Assembly (NCBI RefSeq): GCF_014204835.1
Contig: NZ_JACHMD010000001.1
Location: 806,001 to 870,000 of the forward strand
Direction: 5' to 3'
DNA from: Microbacterium marinum
GTDB lineage: Bacteria > Actinomycetota > Actinomycetes > Actinomycetales > Microbacteriaceae
Length of the DNA: 64,000 bases
Under the pieces are notes generated by a model, which was not told where the DNA came from, made no database searches, and saw only the letters and a list, made by a program, of their open reading frames with translations. This document shows, in pieces, positions 50,684 to 63,054 of the stretch (its first letter is position 1; the number at the start of each line of letters is the position of its first letter). The translations under genes and the position numbers were made by a program.

Positions 50684-51259
50684 TCAGTCCTCCATCCTTC
50701 GGAGTCCTTGAGCGCGCAGCTGATCCCAGTGCGAAGAAAAGTCCTCAGGCGAAAATCGCTCGCCAATCGGGCGCGCTGGACAACCCGCCACGATCGTGTT
50801 GGGTTCGACGTCCTTCGTCACGATCGCTCCCGCCGCGATTATCGCGCTATCACCAATCCTCACACCCGATAGGACAATGGCGCCAAATCCTATCCACACG
50901 TCGGACCCAATGCTGACGGGATCACTCAGAGAGTCGGCGAAATCTCCCACCCATCGTGCCTCCCGAATCGAAACGCCCGTCTGATGCATGTCGTGATCAC
51001 GTGCCCCAACGATTGCGGCGCCGTTTGCAATGAAGAGAGAATCTCCGATTCGACCATCGACTTCGATGCGTACATTGCTCCCCACACTTACGTCATTTCC
51101 GATCGCAAGAGATCGAGGGGCCCAGACCCGAGACCCAACCCCAATCACGAAGTCTGAGCCCGTGCGGACGGAGGGTGCGACAGACCGGCGTACACGCCGA
51201 GCGAGCTTTATGGATCCAATCGCCTTGCGCAAACGGACTCCGACGTCACTTCTAGTCAT
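50684..51259 (-). CDS. Hexapeptide-repeat acyltransferase
   Basis: 191 residues. A left-handed beta-helix with hexapeptide turns: [23 protein letters not shown], then [29 protein letters not shown]. It ends with [12 protein letters not shown], as in maltose/galactoside-type O-acetyltransferases. It acetylates a sugar of the repeat unit (inference). It overlaps the GT4 gene by 8 bases. Confidence 0.87.
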
Positions 51260-52478
51260 GAGTTCGCACCAATCCTTCTAAAGTTTCGCGAACGCCTGTA
51301 CGAAAGTTCGCCCAGCTGTTCCCCTGTGCCGTGTGAAGCGCTTGAGTACTCATCTCCTCGATTCGAGGTGGATTATTGAGGACCGATTCAACGGCTTTAA
51401 TGAGCGACTCCTCGCTACCGGTTTCGACGACGATCCCGCCGCCGTGAGCAACGACGTCGTCGGTCCCAGTGCCCGCAGTGACGATAGCGGGCAGGCCGTG
51501 GCCAAGTGCTTCTAGCACAGCCAACGATCGACCTTCGAACAGGCTGGGCAGTACCAATATGTGGCTGTCTCGCATGAGATCGAACACCATCGATCTATCC
51601 ACAGCGCCCACGTATTCTGCCGACGAAATGAGACGCCTCATCACAGGCAGATCGAGCCTCGGTCTGTGACCGACGAGACGAAGCCGCAGCCGGCTACCGA
51701 AATGATGTTGAAGGGCGGCGACGTAGGCGATGCCCTTCGAGGGCTGCATTCTTCCGACAAAGAGGGCGCGAAGTGGCTCCTTCCCATCCCAGGAGATCGG
51801 GTCGTGTGACGTACTTGTCGTTGGCGAACCGTACGGAATCTGTCTGACACGGGCGTGCGGATCCACCTCGCGGATGCTCTCTGTCACCTGGGAACTCGGA
51901 CTAATGATCACGTCCGCGAGACGGATTTCCTCGACGCCTGATTCTCGGTGCTTCGCTAACGTCGAAGTGTCGATCAAAGGTAGCCATTCTGGATGGATGT
52001 GCCTCTCGTTCTCCAGTAGCCGGAGTGCCGTCCTAACGGTGACGTGATGAGCCTCGAGAGCGGTGGCCACGCCTAGACGCGTCGCTCGCCGAAACAGGGA
52101 CGTACTTTGGCCGAGATACCCATAGGCGACATCATCATCCGCCCGCAGCCGGCGCGCCGCGAGCTTGTCAGTGCTGGCAGCAACCCACTGCGCCCCAAGC
52201 GCCTTTCCAGTGTCGGTCTGTCGACTCAGCGCGTCTAGCGGAATTTTCTTGATGGCCTGGCGTACGAGCTCTCGGCTCGGTGCGGTAGACAGCTGATCAC
52301 GCGAAAGCATTGCGAATACGCGCCTATTCGCCAGCCGGGAGATGGAGGCAGCGGACGCGACTGGTCGCGTTAGCCCTGTGCTGGTGCAGAACAGACGCAG
52401 AATCTGAGCATCCGTGAGTTCCTCAAGAAGCTCGCGGACGTTCTGATTGCCGGTCCCATGGGCGACGACTGTCCGCAT
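51252..52478 (-). CDS. GT4-family glycosyltransferase
   Basis: About 408 residues from ATG 52478, the first Met before good protein-like sequence ([11 protein letters not shown]). The donor domain has [13 protein letters not shown] and [21 protein letters not shown], with the E-x7-E motif. The N-terminal half is not well matched to a known subfamily. Upstream reading to 52751 is open but lacks signs of coding. Part of the minus-strand operon. Confidence 0.85.
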
Positions 52479-52543
52479 AGTTCGTACCTTCGACGGTGTA
52501 GTGATGATGGATCGTCCCTCACTGTTTGGCCGGTTGCGATTGC

Positions 52544-53389
52544 CTATGTCGGGCGACCGAGAAGAATTAGCGCACCGGCTCTGAGATAGGTCGAAAAGAA
52601 GTACATGGGTCCACGAGCGCCCCCATGGCGCAGATTGAACCTCCAGTGTGATCTCGCCGGTACGCCTTTTCGTCCAAATAGAAGTCGCAACCGATCGCGG
52701 CGCGACATCCGCTGGTCCCGCCAGGTACCCGCATGGGAATTCGCATCGCACGTGCCTACGGGACCGGATAAGAGCAACGTGGGGATCCCTGCCTTCTTCG
52801 CTCGAAGGCCGTAATCGATGTCTCCATAGCCGTGCTCGAATGCGGTGTCAATCGAGCCGAGGCAACGGTATGCGGCCCGCGGAACAAGCACGAAGTTGCC
52901 GTTGAACGCGTCGACCTGCTCTGGTGTCCCGCTTGGCAAAACTGGTCGCAAGCTAGTGGGGCGAGAAGACGAAAGCCGCGACCCAGTGTAAGTGACCTGG
53001 TCACCGGAGGATGACAACGTTGCACCTACGATGATCGACGCAGGAGACTGCCTTGCAGCAGCCAGCGCGTCGAGCACTGCCGTATCACTCAGCTGGAGAT
53101 CATCGTTCAGCCACAGCAAGAAGTCCGGGTCAGCGGAGACTGCGTGCTCATGAGCTTTCGCCATCGCGCGTGCCCAGAACAGTCCGCCGTCGCCCTCGAT
53201 AACCTGCAGAGGATGGTCCTGTGCCATGTTGTTGAGCATGGCCCCAGTACCGTCGGTGCTGCCGTCGTCGACAATGAAGATACTTAACCTGAAGTGATCG
53301 TTAATGCCGGATTGGTGTAGCAAGCGACTCAGACACTCTTCGGTCGTCGATCGCCGATTGTGGACCGCCATGAGAACAGAAACAGTCAC
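52544..53389 (-). CDS. GT2 glycosyltransferase (rhamnosyltransferase-like)
   Basis: About 281 residues if GTG 53389 is the start (VTVSVLMAVHNRRSTTEECL). The frame is open to TTG 53473, which would overlap the upstream stop. The GT-A core has VDDGSTDGTG and LWLNDDLQLSD, and the late block DIDYGLRAKKAGIP, as in many rhamnosyltransferase-like GT2 enzymes. The substrate is not determined. Confidence 0.85.
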   Translation of the reverse strand: MTVSVLMAVHNRRSTTEECLSRLLHQSGINDHFRLSIFIVDDGSTDGTGAMLNNMAQDHPLQVIEGDGGLFWARAMAKAHEHAVSADPDFLLWLNDDLQLSDTAVLDALAAARQSPASIIVGATLSSSGDQVTYTGSRLSSSRPTSLRPVLPSGTPEQVDAFNGNFVLVPRAAYRCLGSIDTAFEHGYGDIDYGLRAKKAGIPTLLLSGPVGTCDANSHAGTWRDQRMSRRDRLRLLFGRKGVPARSHWRFNLRHGGARGPMYFFSTYLRAGALILLGRPT

Positions 53390-53469
53390 AATGCCACACT
53401 TGGTCTCGAACAATGTGCTTCCTGTCTGGCCGCGTGCTAATCTCGCGCTGCTGCTTCGAGCTTTTCGCT

Positions 53470-55068
53470 TCAATGTGCCGTCTCCCCGGGTGCGAGGGCG
53501 GCTTTTGCGGTTTTCGCAAGAATCGCGACGTCGCCGACGACCGACCAGTTCTCAACGTAAGAAAGGTCCAGACGAACTGAGGCCTCCCACGAGAGAGTTG
53601 AACGACCGCTGACCTGCCAAAGCCCTGTGATTCCTGGCTTGACAAGGAAGCGCCGATGCACGTGATCAGCGTATCGTTCGACCTCTTTAGGCAACGGTGG
53701 CCTCGGCCCGACCAGCGACATTGAACCGCCGATCACATTGAAGAGCTGGTGCAACTCGTCGAGGCTGAACTTTCGCATGATGCCGCCGATCGGAGTCACA
53801 CGCGGGTCGTTCTTCATCTTGAAGAGCACTTCGTTGCCGGCATCCCGTTGCTGCTTTTCGAGTTCGGCGAGCAACTCTTCGGCATTCACAACCATCGAGC
53901 GGAACTTGATCATGGAGAACTCTTTGCCGCCGAGGCCGACACGTGTCTGGCGGAAGAAGACCGGGCCCTCGCTCGATAGCCGCACACTGATTGCGAGGAA
54001 CGCGAGAACTGGACTGATGAGGATGGAGGCGGTGAGATCCATCGTGCGCTTCGCGACACGCTGACCCCGGTTGAAGCGCGGGGTCTCTACGTGGATGAGG
54101 GGGAGGCCCGCCACCGGGCGCGTGTGAATGCGCGGGCCGGCGATGTCGATGATGCTGGGCGCGAGCACGAGGTGCTGCTTGCCGGCCTCGAGTCCCCACG
54201 AGATCTGCTTGACCTTGTCGGGCGGCAACTCGTCGGTGCTCGTCACGGCGACGGTGTCAGCGCCCGTCGCGAGGATGGCGCGGTCGACGGCGTTGACGTT
54301 GCCCATGATCGGGATGTCGGTGCCCTCGATCGTCGAGGCGATCTTGCCAGAGGGTACACACGCGCCGACGACGCGGTACCCGGCGCTGGGTGTGCGCTGC
54401 AGCTCGCGCGCGAGATGAGCGACGCTCGATTCTGAGCCAACTAGCAGCACGCGCGCCGAGTACTGACCCGACTGCCGCTTGGAGATGAGCCACTGACGCC
54501 AAAGCCAGCGCTCGAGGATGAGAACGAGCACGCCGACGGGCAGGCTGATGAGCAAGAATCCGCGGGCGACGTCAACACGCAGGAGGAAGGCGAAGATCGC
54601 GATGATGCCAAAGAGGCGCACACTCGCGTCGACGATGCGGAGGTACTCGGTGTTGCCGCTGCCGATGACCCGATCGCTGCGGGAGTCGATGAGGCTGAGC
54701 ACCCACATCCACGCGACGATGAGCAGGGCGGAGAAGAACCAGTAGGAGAGGTCGCTGAGACGGTGATCCTCGCGCATTGCGATCTCTGCGTTGCCGAGAC
54801 CGAACCAGTAGATCTGTGTGCCGTAGATCACCCAGATGAGGGCGAGGAGGTCGGTGAACCAGATGCGGCGTGCGTAGCGCTGACGCCATCGGTCTTGTGG
54901 GCGCGGAGTCGGGATCGACCCGGTGGAGGCGCTCGCGATGACCCTGGCGGGCGCGGTGAGCCGACTGTCGCTCGGCTTCTCCGAGCTTTCGGCGCTGTGC
55001 GTTGATGAGCTATCTGGAATTCGCAGCGACGTCTTTGTCGCGTCGACCTTTTGCAGGTTCGACGTCAC
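53470..55068 (-). CDS. WcaJ/WbaP-type initiating sugar-1-phosphate transferase, copy 2
   Basis: 532 residues. The same architecture as the gene at 23631: an N-terminal Ser/Thr-rich stretch (1-55), membrane helices, a Rossmann-like domain and the C-terminal sugar transferase domain with KFRSMV, RKFSLDELHQLFNVI, GPRPPLP and KPGITGLWQVSGRS. The two proteins are alike along most of their length (RVLLVGS, EGTDIPIMG, TRPVAGLPLIHVETPRF). It begins the minus-strand arm of the locus and is the likely initiator for the Wzx/Wzy repeat unit. Confidence 0.9.
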   Translation of the reverse strand: MTSNLQKVDATKTSLRIPDSSSTHSAESSEKPSDSRLTAPARVIASASTGSIPTPRPQDRWRQRYARRIWFTDLLALIWVIYGTQIYWFGLGNAEIAMREDHRLSDLSYWFFSALLIVAWMWVLSLIDSRSDRVIGSGNTEYLRIVDASVRLFGIIAIFAFLLRVDVARGFLLISLPVGVLVLILERWLWRQWLISKRQSGQYSARVLLVGSESSVAHLARELQRTPSAGYRVVGACVPSGKIASTIEGTDIPIMGNVNAVDRAILATGADTVAVTSTDELPPDKVKQISWGLEAGKQHLVLAPSIIDIAGPRIHTRPVAGLPLIHVETPRFNRGQRVAKRTMDLTASILISPVLAFLAISVRLSSEGPVFFRQTRVGLGGKEFSMIKFRSMVVNAEELLAELEKQQRDAGNEVLFKMKNDPRVTPIGGIMRKFSLDELHQLFNVIGGSMSLVGPRPPLPKEVERYADHVHRRFLVKPGITGLWQVSGRSTLSWEASVRLDLSYVENWSVVGDVAILAKTAKAALAPGETAH

Positions 55069-58522: not shown

Positions 58523-59590
58523 ATGCTCACGATCCCGTCTCCCGGGGTGCTTGCGTTCCGATCGCGTGCCGTACGGCGCGGATGCGCGGGAGCGTTGCTC
58601 GCCGGGTTGCTTCTGCTTACCGGCTGCTCGCAAGCGGGGGACGCACCGCGATCATACGGAGTCTGCGGCGAGCAGGTCACCCCCGTCGGCGCGACCGCCG
58701 CCGAGCTCCAGGCTGCGCTCGACCAAGCCCGGCCAGGCGACACGCTTGCTCTGCAACCAATCACGTACGTTGGCACGTTCACCATTGCAGCATCTGGTGC
58801 GGAGGGAGCGCCGATCACGCTGTGCGGTGCGGACGGAAGTCGCATCGATGGCGGCGACGTCGCGGAAGGATATGGACTCCATCTCAATGCCGCCTCCTTT
58901 TGGCGCATACAGGGCGTCGAGGTGACGGCCGTAGCAAAGGGGATCGTTCTCGACGCTGCCCACCACAACGAGATTGTGAACGTGGTCGTTGACGAGGTCG
59001 GGCAAGAGGGAATCCACTTGCGGTCGAACAGCTCGGACAATGCCGTCCTCGACTCGGTCGTTTCGAACACGGGGCTGACGGACCCGGAGTTCGGCGAAGG
59101 CGTGTATGTCGGATCAGCGGAGTCGAACTGGTGCCGCTACACGGACTGTGCGCCGGACGCGAGCGATCGAAACCGCATCGAAGGCAATGCCATTTCGGAT
59201 GTCAGCGCCGAGGCCATTGATGTCAAGGAGGGCACGACCGGGGGGTCCATCATCGGAAACATGCTGAGCCTTTCGTCGGACCCCGGCGTCGATTCGGTCA
59301 TTGACATCAAGGGCAATGAGTGGACTATTGCGGAGAACACGGTCACGCACCACGAACAACTCGGCATGCAAGTGCACGAGATCCTCGAGGGGTGGGGGGT
59401 GCGCAACACCATTTCAGCCAACGTCTTTGACGCGGGAGCCGGTCAGGTCAGCGTCGAAATCGTTGGGAAGGCTCGTGAAGGCGCCAACACCGTGGGCTGC
59501 GACAACGCGACGATGAGCGGAGATTCCGTGTTGAGCAACGTCACCTGCTCGTCACTTCGACGGTCATGCCCATCGTGCCCGTTCCCCTAA
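58523..59590 (+). CDS. Secreted right-handed beta-helix lipoprotein
   Basis: 355 residues from ATG 58523, with GGGGAGG upstream. A signal peptide and lipobox (LLTGC, Cys near 36) are followed by a right-handed parallel beta-helix (about 60-340). Its repeated strand-turn units include HNEIVNVVVDEVGQEGIHLRS and RNRIEGNAISDVSAEAIDVKE, of the pectate-lyase/chondroitinase-B or AlgG-epimerase type. Four late Cys residues may form disulfides. It is exported and lipid-anchored; catalytic residues cannot be assigned by eye. It heads a unit with the GT2 synthase at 59648. Lyase, epimerase or polymer-binding roles are all possible. Confidence 0.8.
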   Translation: MLTIPSPGVLAFRSRAVRRGCAGALLAGLLLLTGCSQAGDAPRSYGVCGEQVTPVGATAAELQAALDQARPGDTLALQPITYVGTFTIAASGAEGAPITLCGADGSRIDGGDVAEGYGLHLNAASFWRIQGVEVTAVAKGIVLDAAHHNEIVNVVVDEVGQEGIHLRSNSSDNAVLDSVVSNTGLTDPEFGEGVYVGSAESNWCRYTDCAPDASDRNRIEGNAISDVSAEAIDVKEGTTGGSIIGNMLSLSSDPGVDSVIDIKGNEWTIAENTVTHHEQLGMQVHEILEGWGVRNTISANVFDAGAGQVSVEIVGKAREGANTVGCDNATMSGDSVLSNVTCSSLRRSCPSCPFP

Positions 59591-59647
59591 GCTGACCAGC
59601 AGGGAAGTGCGCTGGGGAGCGCGCCTGGGGATCGTGTGGGGTGGGGA

Positions 59648-60895
59648 ATGACGCCGACGGAGTTGAGTTGGCTGATGCCGTTCGGCGTACTTGGGATCAT
59701 CTCGTGGGGATTCTGGGCGTTCCGAAAGGTGCTCTCAGCAACTGCCCGTCCGACTGAGAACGACTTCCGTACGACGACCACGGTGGTGGTCCCCTCGTAC
59801 CACGAGGATCCGGATGTCTTGCTGCGGTGTTTGGCAACGTGGCACGCGCAACGCCCAAGCCGCATCATCGTCGTGCTCGATGTCGCTGACCTCGAGGCGC
59901 AAGAGCGCATCGAGGCGCTCGGGCAGGCTGACATCACGGTGGTGATGTTCAAACACCGGGGGAAGCGCTCTGCGCTGGGTTGCGGCATGCGTATGGTCGA
60001 CACGGAGCTTGTCCTCTTCGTCGACTCAGATACCGCGTGGGAGGATGGCATGCTCGACGCGGTGCAGATGCCGTTTGTTGATCCGGCTGTCGGGGCGGTG
60101 AGCACTCGTCAGAATGTGTACCGACCCCGATCGAGCGTGTGGCGACGTGTCGCGGACTGGATTATCGATCTGCGCTACTACGACTATGCGCCAGCGATGG
60201 GCCGCTTCGGCGGCATCATCTGCGCGTCAGGGCGAACAGCGGCGTATCGAACATCGGTGATCGTGCCGCAGGTTGAAAAGCTCGAGCGCGAGATGTTCTT
60301 CGGCCGCGAGTGTGTCGCTGGCGACGACGGGCGGATGACATGGCTCGTGCTCTCGCAGGGCTACAAAGTCGCGCATCAAGACAGCGCGCGTGCGCTGTCG
60401 ATGTTCCCCGGGACGTTTCGCGCTTTCGTGAAGCAACGTGTGCGCTGGAGTCGCAACTCCTATCGGTGTTACCTCACAGCCATCGGAAGCGGATGGCTCT
60501 TCAGGCTGCCGGTCATCTCGCAGCTCACCGTCATGCAGATCTTGCTGACACCGTTCACGATGTTCGTCGCACTCGCCTACGTCGTGCTCGCGGTTCGCAG
60601 TGAGCATGCCGCGCTCTCGCTCGCGGTCGCGGTCGGCTGGGTCATCGTCGGTCGTGGCATCCGAGGGTTCTCACATCTCTGGCGGCGCCCGGAAGACCTC
60701 GCGATCCTCCCGCTCGTCGCCGGCATAATCATCTTCATCGCGCTACCGATCAAGACCTACGCGCTGTTCACGATGAACAAGCAGGGGTGGCTCACTCGTT
60801 CCGCGGGCCAGCAGGGCGGCGAAGGGCAATCTGAAGCGAGTCTCGACCGCGTCGCGCAAGATGGAATGGCCGATTCGACAACCGCGGGCGCATGA
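59648..60895 (+). CDS. Processive GT2 polysaccharide synthase (hyaluronan/alginate synthase-like)
   Basis: About 415 residues from ATG 59648 (a GTG at 59636 is also open). One N-terminal membrane helix (about 10-28) is followed by a GT2 core with VVPSYHEDP, the DXD in LFVDSDTAW, the catalytic GDDGRMT and the processivity motif KQRVRWSRNSYR (QxxRW). Several C-terminal helices (about 275-390) end in MNKQGWLTR. This set is shared by hyaluronan synthase, NodC and Alg8. It makes and exports a beta-linked polymer of unknown sugar. It overlaps the next gene by 4 bases. Confidence 0.88.
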   Translation: MTPTELSWLMPFGVLGIISWGFWAFRKVLSATARPTENDFRTTTTVVVPSYHEDPDVLLRCLATWHAQRPSRIIVVLDVADLEAQERIEALGQADITVVMFKHRGKRSALGCGMRMVDTELVLFVDSDTAWEDGMLDAVQMPFVDPAVGAVSTRQNVYRPRSSVWRRVADWIIDLRYYDYAPAMGRFGGIICASGRTAAYRTSVIVPQVEKLEREMFFGRECVAGDDGRMTWLVLSQGYKVAHQDSARALSMFPGTFRAFVKQRVRWSRNSYRCYLTAIGSGWLFRLPVISQLTVMQILLTPFTMFVALAYVVLAVRSEHAALSLAVAVGWVIVGRGIRGFSHLWRRPEDLAILPLVAGIIIFIALPIKTYALFTMNKQGWLTRSAGQQGGEGQSEASLDRVAQDGMADSTTAGA

Positions 60896-63054
60896 GTGAC
60901 GCGGAACTCACCGCGGAGGAGCGGGGCGATGTCGGATCCAAGCGTCGGCTACTCGGGCGGGGGGTCGTCGTCGTCCTGATCGGCGCTTTGGTCGGCGCGA
61001 TTGTGGTGGGCACCTTTCTGACGCGTGCGGGCCGTGCGCCGTGGCAGGAAGACGCTCGCCCGACGACGACACCGACAGCGACCTACTCGCCGTCTCCCGC
61101 ATCCTCTGCGTCAACCGCAGGTGCTGCCGCCGAACTCGTGCGCAGTGAAGACCAGCGACTGGTCGAACTGACCCGATTCGCAGCCGACGACCCCGCTACG
61201 CGGGCCGGCCTCGACACCGTCGTGCTCGGCCCGCGTCGATCGCCGTATGGTGCAGGCGACCTCATGGACAGGGGTGCACTGGCAAAGATCGACTCGTCGA
61301 CGTACGAGCTTCGCCGCCACGTCGTCGTTAGAGGAGGGGCGCATCTCGCGCTCCGCCTCCCCGGAGCGACGCTGCGGTTGAGAAGTGGTTCCGATGGGTT
61401 CGCCAGCATCGTGACGTGGGGTGGCTCGTTGACACTCCGTGGCCGACAGGACGCCGGGATGATCATCAGTTCGTGGGACGATCTTACGTCGTCGCCCGAT
61501 GCCGACGTTGACGACGGTCGCGCATACATTCGCGTACGTGACGGTGTCCTGTCAGCGGAGGACGTGACATTCGCTGCCCTCGGGTTCTGGAGCGGCCGCA
61601 CCGGTGGTGTTGCCATCACCGGTACAGAGCCCGGGGCCGTCAAAGTTCGGCTCACGCGCACGGTTCACACTGATTCTCACTATGGCGTCTACGCCGAGGG
61701 GGTAATCGAGAGCACGCTGACCAACGTTGCGATCTCTAATTCTGCGATGGAAGGGATTGTGCTCTCGAACCGCTCGCACGGCGTGGCCATCTCAGGCGGA
61801 AGCATCGTCGACGCGAGGGCGAGCGGTGTGAAGATTGATCGCGCGTCGGGGGACATCACTATCGAGCGTGTCGCGGTGCGCGGGTCGGGCGGGTACGGAG
61901 TCATGATCGATGGCTCGGCGCTCGCGGACGGTGCCAACGCTGCTGGACATGCGACGACGCGTTCGACCAGCTACACGTTGCGGTCGCTGACGCTTAATGG
62001 CAACGAGGATGGCGGTGTGCTCGCGCGAGGAGCGGACGGCGTACACCTGCTCGGGAGTGACGTCGCGGAGGATTCGATCGCCATGCGGGTTGTTGGGCCC
62101 GCATCCGATATTGCCGTTGATCGTTCGACGCTGCATTCCGACGCGTCACTGGGTTTCGTCGTGACGGATGTGCCGACCGGTGTGACGGTGACTGACAGCG
62201 AGATCGAGGGTCTCGGCACGGCGGTCCGATCCGTCTCCTCGACCGTCGAGATCTCGGGAAGTGAACTGGCAATTCAAAGCGGGCACATCGTCGAGGTGCT
62301 CGAGGACTCTGAGGCGTCACTCCGCGCAAACACTATGAGCGGATCCGGCCAGGATCCTGTCTTCACGGATGACACCAGTCATGCGACCAACGTCTCGAGC
62401 GATCAATCGGCGTGGCGGTTCCAATCCGACATTGTGACGTGGCTGCATCATCACCCGATGGTGTGGCTCTGGCTCCTCGTTCTTTTGGTTCCCCTTATCG
62501 GGTTCCCCTTCTTCCTGCGGTACAAGCGCCACCAGCGCGAACTGCAGCGGATGCTCGAGAACGCAATGATCGCCTACGCACAGGACCGCATCGACGAGTA
62601 TGACACCAGGGGTATGGTGACGCCAGCGGAGGCAGTTCGGCGCGCGGCCGCTCACGAGGTGTCCGCAGGCGCGGGCGACGACCGCGCGCCCTCCGTGCCC
62701 GATCGAAGACAACCGGAGTCGCGGCTTCCGGGGGTCGCCGACGCGAGGCACGCGGCATCCGTCGACATACCCACCGTGCGTCCTCCGGCTCTACCGACTT
62801 CGAATCAGGGCCGACTTCGAGCGCCGCGTACGCTGAACGACCTGCGCGCGGGGACGCTTGCAGGGCGGGACTTTGCAACCATGCGACAGTTCGCGGTGGC
62901 GGCGGTACTCGAATCCGGTTACCCGCTTCCTCACATCGCGCGACTTTTCAGGATCCCGATCTGGCGATTGCAGCAATGGGTGACCGAGGACTATGGAGGT
63001 GCCGAAGGGCCGTCCAGTCCCGCTGGACAGGGGCGTCCTGCGCCAAGACGCTGA
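60892..63054 (+). CDS. Membrane-anchored beta-helix protein with cytoplasmic HTH-like tail
   Basis: 720 residues. The N-terminal helix (about 22-43) and a Thr/Pro/Ser linker lead to an extracytoplasmic right-handed beta-helix (about 130-490), with units such as HGVAISGGSIVDARASGVKI. A second membrane helix (about 522-542) is followed by about 178 cytoplasmic residues. The final part (near 660-700) reads MRQFAVAAVLESGYPLPHIARLFRIPIWRLQQWV, helix-turn-helix-like. The beta-helix resembles polysaccharide lyase or epimerase scaffolds. A protein joining an outside beta-helix to an inside HTH could sense polymer and report to the cell (inference); it could also be an anchored epimerase. ATGA overlap with the synthase gene shows coupling. 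Confidence 0.78.
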   Translation: MSDAELTAEERGDVGSKRRLLGRGVVVVLIGALVGAIVVGTFLTRAGRAPWQEDARPTTTPTATYSPSPASSASTAGAAAELVRSEDQRLVELTRFAADDPATRAGLDTVVLGPRRSPYGAGDLMDRGALAKIDSSTYELRRHVVVRGGAHLALRLPGATLRLRSGSDGFASIVTWGGSLTLRGRQDAGMIISSWDDLTSSPDADVDDGRAYIRVRDGVLSAEDVTFAALGFWSGRTGGVAITGTEPGAVKVRLTRTVHTDSHYGVYAEGVIESTLTNVAISNSAMEGIVLSNRSHGVAISGGSIVDARASGVKIDRASGDITIERVAVRGSGGYGVMIDGSALADGANAAGHATTRSTSYTLRSLTLNGNEDGGVLARGADGVHLLGSDVAEDSIAMRVVGPASDIAVDRSTLHSDASLGFVVTDVPTGVTVTDSEIEGLGTAVRSVSSTVEISGSELAIQSGHIVEVLEDSEASLRANTMSGSGQDPVFTDDTSHATNVSSDQSAWRFQSDIVTWLHHHPMVWLWLLVLLVPLIGFPFFLRYKRHQRELQRMLENAMIAYAQDRIDEYDTRGMVTPAEAVRRAAAHEVSAGAGDDRAPSVPDRRQPESRLPGVADARHAASVDIPTVRPPALPTSNQGRLRAPRTLNDLRAGTLAGRDFATMRQFAVAAVLESGYPLPHIARLFRIPIWRLQQWVTEDYGGAEGPSSPAGQGRPAPRR

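Follow-up and report, generated by a model that had tools for sequence, protein, structure and literature searches.

A conserved three-gene locus in Microbacterium marinum as a candidate polyuronate biosynthesis system, possibly for beta-1,4-glucuronan

A stretch of 64,000 nucleotides from Microbacterium marinum (assembly GCF_014204835.1, contig NZ_JACHMD010000001.1, positions 806,001 to 870,000 of the forward strand), referred to as the window, was analysed with regard to a compact operon of three genes, termed P1, P2 and P3. The host genome comprises 3.12 Mb in one contig. In window coordinates, the operon is laid out as follows:

58523-59590, plus strand: P1, PL31 polysaccharide lyase with a beta-helix fold, a lipoprotein of 355 residues
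59636-60895, plus strand: P2, processive GT2 polymerase (GTG start; alternative ATG at 59648)
60892-63054, plus strand: P3, AlgG-like membrane beta-helix protein, 720 residues (from Pfam, family profile and hydropathy)
60892-60895, plus strand: ATGA overlap of 4 bases, P3 start on P2 stop (read from the sequence)

P1 and P2 are separated by 45 bases, all three genes run in the same direction, and a gene named glmM by eye lies upstream. P2 terminates in [A/G]TGA in 28 of 40 related loci, and the ATGA overlap may couple the translation of P3 to that of P2. The original prediction, made from the letters of the window, had described three plus-strand genes for a lipoprotein beta-helix, a processive GT2 with the QxxRW set and a membrane beta-helix, the last two overlapping, all of which was confirmed.

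Two sets of sequences were searched for the three genes. The first, obtained in one scan, held 44 loci, 42 of them actinobacterial by sequence; the second consisted of 197 genomes of the actinomycete class and may overlap with the first. Gene presence was taken from tblastn matches; neighbour clusters from a simple open reading frame (ORF) caller included wrong-frame ORFs (C4 overlaps P3). Family memberships, catalytic residues, co-occurrence and the closest dehydrogenase relatives were computed. Before counting, two partial P1 rows, three P2 rows (two halves from L047, and L049) and 13 P3 rows (11 matches to the C-terminal tail only and two L047 halves) were dropped. Alignment A1 comprised 37 of 39 P3 loci, A2 38 of 49 P1 rows and A3 30 of 42 P2 rows, each together with the window, and A4 comprised 15 rows, including L069 and L075 from the class sample that was searched with A4. 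The 145 P3 rows mix loci with database proteins and are unevenly sampled.

Conservation of the three-gene unit in other Actinobacteria had been set beforehand as a test, and the genes were found to recur together in both sets. Within the first set, P1 was found in 41 of the 42 loci and P3 likewise in 41 (in L026 by its tail only); L049 gave no P1 match, and the L010 stretch stops shortly past P2. In the class sample, P2 was present in 13 of the 197 genomes (E 1e-100 or better) and strong P3 matches (8e-91 or better) occurred in exactly these 13, while G100 (3e-29) and G132 (2e-18) gave weak ones. PL31 proteins (E 1e-25 or better) were detected in 13/13 genomes with P2 and in 2/184 others (Fisher p 1.5e-18, uncorrected for kinship). 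The distribution is patchy, as none of the five other same-genus genomes among the 197 carries P2. One TGA was flagged for P2 in genomes G079 and G017; the tblastn stretches used (L072, L079) are stop-free. P1-P2-P3 is thus a real conserved system, beyond chance co-occurrence. An accidental placement beside a GT2 of two unrelated proteins, P1 and P3, serving in scavenging or adhesion, would agree with G195 and G039, where PL31 occurs without a synthase and the surrounding 18 kb gave no match to P2, P3 or a dehydrogenase, but is highly improbable given the exact co-occurrence of P2 with strong P3 and a gene order in which P3 adjoins P2 in all 13 genomes and PL31 does so in 12 (the exception being G046).

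The database copy of P2 has 415 residues, in agreement with the ATG start at 59648. The protein matches Pfam Glyco_tranf_2_3 (E 3e-26), with GDD and QRVRW (the QxxRW set) in 43/43 rows of the family and the first Asp of DSD in 41/43. Its closest relatives are from Microbacterium. Among NCBIfam models, NodC scores highest (133 bits, under the cut-off of 550), and among solved structures the top matches are hyaluronan synthase chains (E 1e-20). P2 resembles hyaluronan synthases and NodC in the GT2 domain, the QxxRW motif and a tryptophan motif that follows the final hydrophobic segment, but differs from them in an overlapping beta-helix partner gene, a conserved GGxGQ tail and the motif SGRTAAY/SGR, which corresponds to GP in NodC, the Lactococcus enzyme and the aligned hyaluronan synthases. 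The Arg of SGR, which would meet a uronate acceptor, is present in 43/43 rows; the archaeal and Curtobacterium proteins have it too. A tree of 59 rows places the actinobacterial P2 proteins, including L040, in one group of 54 (support 100/99). NodC, the Lactococcus enzyme, a Curtobacterium plasmid enzyme and two archaeal rows fall outside it; the tree is midpoint-rooted, and long branches leave the order of these outer rows unsure.

This likeness raises the alternative of a glucuronic acid (GlcA) heteropolymer, either hyaluronan-like with N-acetylglucosamine or with glucose, for which P2 would use two UDP-sugars and P1 would cut at 4-linked GlcA. Among the 120 database relatives listed for P2, 11 carry the name hyaluronan synthase, and the dehydrogenase association described below fits equally. 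The invariant Arg in place of GP speaks against such a product, as do the PL31 substrates in print, which are uronate homopolymers; PsAly, the characterised PL31 enzyme, was inactive on heparin, xanthan and gellan, according to the available part of its description (PMC6796002). A heteropolymer is therefore regarded as rather unlikely, and the hyaluronan synthase names borne by some P2 orthologues may mislead database users.

Several further loci with relatives of P2 were recorded. L085, on plasmid pTCL of Curtobacterium sp. TC1, has a distant P2-like GT2 (30% identity) accompanied by a glycosyl hydrolase and a UDP-glucose/GDP-mannose dehydrogenase, and perhaps represents a second plan for a uronate polymer. 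Two archaeal contigs (L050 and L052; 30 and 27% identity) encode GT2 relatives with a GGR motif together with a short nucleotide-sugar dehydrogenase, and their stretches gave no P1 or P3 match. L040, on a contig titled Vibrio cholerae, is an Arthrobacter-like copy of the operon. Its dehydrogenase shares 91% identity with the enzyme of locus L036 from Arthrobacter cheniae, and contamination or a wrong label of the record is probable.

P1 carries a lipobox, LLLLTGC, at residues 29-35 (by eye) and matches the Pfam entries Beta_helix and NosD. Assignment as NosD was rejected, with 39 bits for the model against a cut-off of 300. By homology and fold P1 falls into PL31, with the alginate lyase PsAly (6KFN) as the best characterised relative, of which it keeps K128, H154, R156, E181, Y184, E216, D219, K221, D250, K252 and H278. 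The catalytic Tyr184 and Lys221 of PsAly correspond to Y195 and K235 of P1, and its first cation site (Glu181, Glu216 and Asp219) to E192, E230 and D233, all conserved in 49-50 of 50 rows. By family and catalytic residues, P1 is a PL31 lyase with predicted activity on a polyuronate. PL31 is reported in the literature to include glucuronan lyases too. P1 differs from PsAly in being a lipoprotein that adjoins a synthase gene, as well as at three positions considered further below.

P3 matches Pfam Beta_helix (E 1.6e-12) and shows hydrophobic stretches at residues 19-47 and 518-544 (hydropathy), with the beta-helix between them. As a single sequence it reached mannuronan epimerases weakly (E 0.004), and a family profile of 15 P3 ectodomains (A4) placed AlgG first (chain 4OZY, E 7e-21), in an alignment that matches at DPHD and the later Arg and takes in the region before the repeats. 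A PL31 profile, also of a beta-helix, gave no AlgG match at E 0.01 or better, which argues against a generic fold match, and P3 is classed by its profile as a remote homologue of AlgG. The original prediction had called for comparison of both beta-helices with AlgG, PL6 and PL31. Carried out by sequence, this comparison linked P1 to PL31 and P3 to AlgG; P3 was rejected as a PL6 or PL31 lyase, as none such was among its PDB profile matches, which AlgG topped, and the AlgG catalytic set was not recovered in P3 of the window. In a search of the best 8000 candidates, 94 of 99 matches to P3 lay at E 1.3e-73 or better and the next at 7e-11, a jump that marks a well-bounded family, whose invariant positions include D203, G209, R210, G231 and G235.

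Where AlgG has YGIDPHDRSHG, P3 of the window reads EGIVLSNRSHG, with E, V, S and N at the Tyr, first Asp, His and last Asp, respectively; the AlgG-type Arg is retained. The carboxylate-neutralising Arg of AlgG is taken to be Arg345. Across the 145 P3 rows (window included), the AlgG residues were found 117 times for His, 105 for Arg, three for the first Asp, twice for Tyr (L046 and L049) and once for the last Asp (L046). For AlgG itself, the available part of PMC4444821 names the His of DPHD as the probable proton-abstracting residue, Tyr314 as a ligand of water and an Arg as the residue that neutralises the carboxylate. An active epimerase was rejected for the window P3, which probably does not epimerise because its Tyr, His and both Asp positions are replaced.

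Two relatives deviate from this pattern. P3 of a Kineococcus locus (L046:3063-4634) has the full AlgG motif, YGFDPHD with Arg (YDHDR), and that at L049:605-2383 has YGFDPHT with Arg (YDHTR); by these residues both are possible active epimerases on a glucuronate polymer. The cytoplasmic tail of the window P3 (about residues 644-700; window 62821-62991) resembles a helix-turn-helix domain by eye and recurs in other operon-side ORFs of ten Microbacterium loci (L012, L013, L014, L015, L018, L019, L021, L022, L023 and L024). Of five such ORFs examined, three (L013, L015 and L019) start like XRE regulators by eye, and the tail may be a shared regulatory or docking domain.

A nucleotide-sugar dehydrogenase gene was located inside the fetched stretch in 19 of 42 loci from actinobacteria in the first set, where stretches extend at most 8 kb to each side, and in 8 of 12 loci of the class sample. 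The host genome has one PF00984 gene, about 225 kb from the operon, whose product is 60% identical to the L040 enzyme. In a score-based comparison of these two proteins with the PDB, UDP-glucose dehydrogenase (4A7P for the host) reached 303 bits for the host and 331 bits for the L040 enzyme, against 176 and 190 bits for GDP-mannose dehydrogenase. Five of the 19 in-locus enzymes were typed with NCBIfam; in 5/5 the best single-function model was UDP-glucose dehydrogenase, below cut-offs, four being nearest TuaD and L016 being of the PRK15057 type (632 bits against a cut-off of 757). The host enzyme gave UDP-glucose dehydrogenase as best single-function model as well, also below cut-off, and a GDP-mannose model was not listed among the NCBIfam matches. 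Named plasmid relatives of the host enzyme (60 of 592 records) bear mostly general names (UDP-glucose/GDP-mannose dehydrogenase family protein or nucleotide sugar dehydrogenase) that leave the type undecided. Since the dehydrogenases are nearest UDP-glucose enzymes, a supply of UDP-glucuronate appears likely and one of GDP-mannuronate less so. A protein related to the host dehydrogenase (40% identity) is encoded on plasmid NZ_CP032406.1 of Rhizobium rosettiformans; glucuronan production has been reported for a wild strain of this species.

Together, these data suggest that P1-P2-P3 forms the core of a minimal synthase-dependent polyuronate system with alginate-like logic and with beta-1,4-glucuronan as its most likely product, a reading to which a probability of roughly 0.53 is assigned. 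We infer the identity of the polymer, the guiding role of P3 and the cutting role of P1 as follows. The precursor, UDP-glucuronate, would come from UDP-glucose 6-dehydrogenase, whose gene belongs to the locus in many relatives and sits about 225 kb away in the host. P2, as a single membrane GT2, would polymerise a beta-linked chain from this precursor and export the chain through the membrane. P3, anchored at both ends of its ectodomain, would hold, guide or shield the emerging chain at the outer face in an AlgG-like cleft whose epimerase residues would have disappeared in this lineage. P1, held at the outer face by its lipid anchor, would use beta-elimination to remove chains that are stray or too long, in the manner of AlgL on alginate. 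The fuller version, a beta-1,4-glucuronan locus of Gram-positives with a one-protein synthase, an AlgG-derived pseudo-epimerase as guide and a PL31 lyase as editor, in which the full motif of L046 might be active on polyglucuronate, is put forward tentatively.

Several observations weigh against this reading. No dehydrogenase gene was found within stretches of at most 8 kb on each side in 23/42 loci of the first set, nor in the stretches of 4/12 class-sample loci, and the operon of the window is without one. The typing of the dehydrogenase is score-based, its PDB comparison covers two proteins, and it is a pointer rather than proof, because for both the host and L040 enzymes GDP-mannose dehydrogenase outscores some UDP-glucose enzymes (e.g. 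1DLI). The solved enzymes nearest P2 make hyaluronan, a heteropolymer. PsAly prefers polymannuronate and was inactive on the other uronate polymers tried, and glucuronan is absent from its description, in both cases as far as the available part of the paper extends (PMC6796002). Finally, three PsAly positions are not conserved in P1: D188 and K191 are replaced by Ala and Asn in 49/50 rows, and Y244 by Gly. The idea that the D188/K191 replacement marks a different substrate was weakened, because three PL31 stretches without a synthase also differ from PsAly there.

The alginate system of Pseudomonas and Azotobacter (Alg8, Alg44, AlgG, AlgL and AlgD) also combines a membrane GT2, an AlgG-family beta-helix, a lyase and a nucleotide-sugar 6-dehydrogenase. 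AlgL belongs to PL5, whereas the lyase of the present locus is of PL31, a finding that concerns the locus and not the rest of the genome. The synthase is nearest hyaluronan synthase and NodC among the NCBIfam models and solved chains compared, the dehydrogenase is by score nearest UDP-glucose enzymes, which points away from AlgD, and the AlgG-like P3 of the window is membrane-anchored and lacks the catalytic residues. As the original prediction had stated in contrasting the locus with Alg44, PilZ is missing: no such domain was among the Pfam matches of P1, P2 and P3, and PF07238 had no match in the host genome at E 0.001, in a search that was positive in 5 of 14 control genomes. In the alginate system, AlgG is part of the export complex and mutants without it give oligomers, the expected product of AlgL (PMC4444821, available part). 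Alginate operons were found largely in Pseudomonas in a survey of synthase-dependent systems (PMC7112194, likewise in part).

The initial proposal of an alginate-type system consequently stands as a close parallel, with P3 as an AlgG homologue and P1 as a PL31 lyase, but alginate as the polymer was weakened by the UDP-glucose-like dehydrogenase, the residue loss in P3, the proximity of P2 to hyaluronan synthase and NodC, and the reports of glucuronan lyases in PL31. A true alginate (polymannuronate) system in an actinobacterium could draw on the homology of P3 to AlgG, the relation of P1 to a polymannuronate lyase and the retention of most of the AlgG catalytic set in 2 of the 145 P3 rows (L046 and L049). 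It is nevertheless considered improbable on the score-based dehydrogenase evidence, since the only such enzyme of the host genome and that of L040 are nearest UDP-glucose enzymes, and the lack of a PilZ match in the host genome points the same way.

Elsewhere in the window, the minus strand carries at 51252-55068 a sugar transferase and two glycosyltransferase-like ORFs, upstream of rplM, rpsI and glmM. These ORFs, named by eye like the genes next to them, are perhaps another exopolysaccharide cluster.

According to the available part of a 2023 paper (PMC10180729), it is not yet known which genes and loci direct glucuronan biosynthesis, and no description of such an operon or of a glucuronan synthase came up in searches of open-access papers. 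The P1-P2-P3 locus therefore offers a short candidate, perhaps the first, for glucuronan biosynthesis genes. If the proposed reading is true, the plan of the alginate system, with a synthase, an AlgG-like guide, a lyase and a dehydrogenase, would exist in Gram-positives with largely different parts, and an epimerase would be able to turn into a structural partner.

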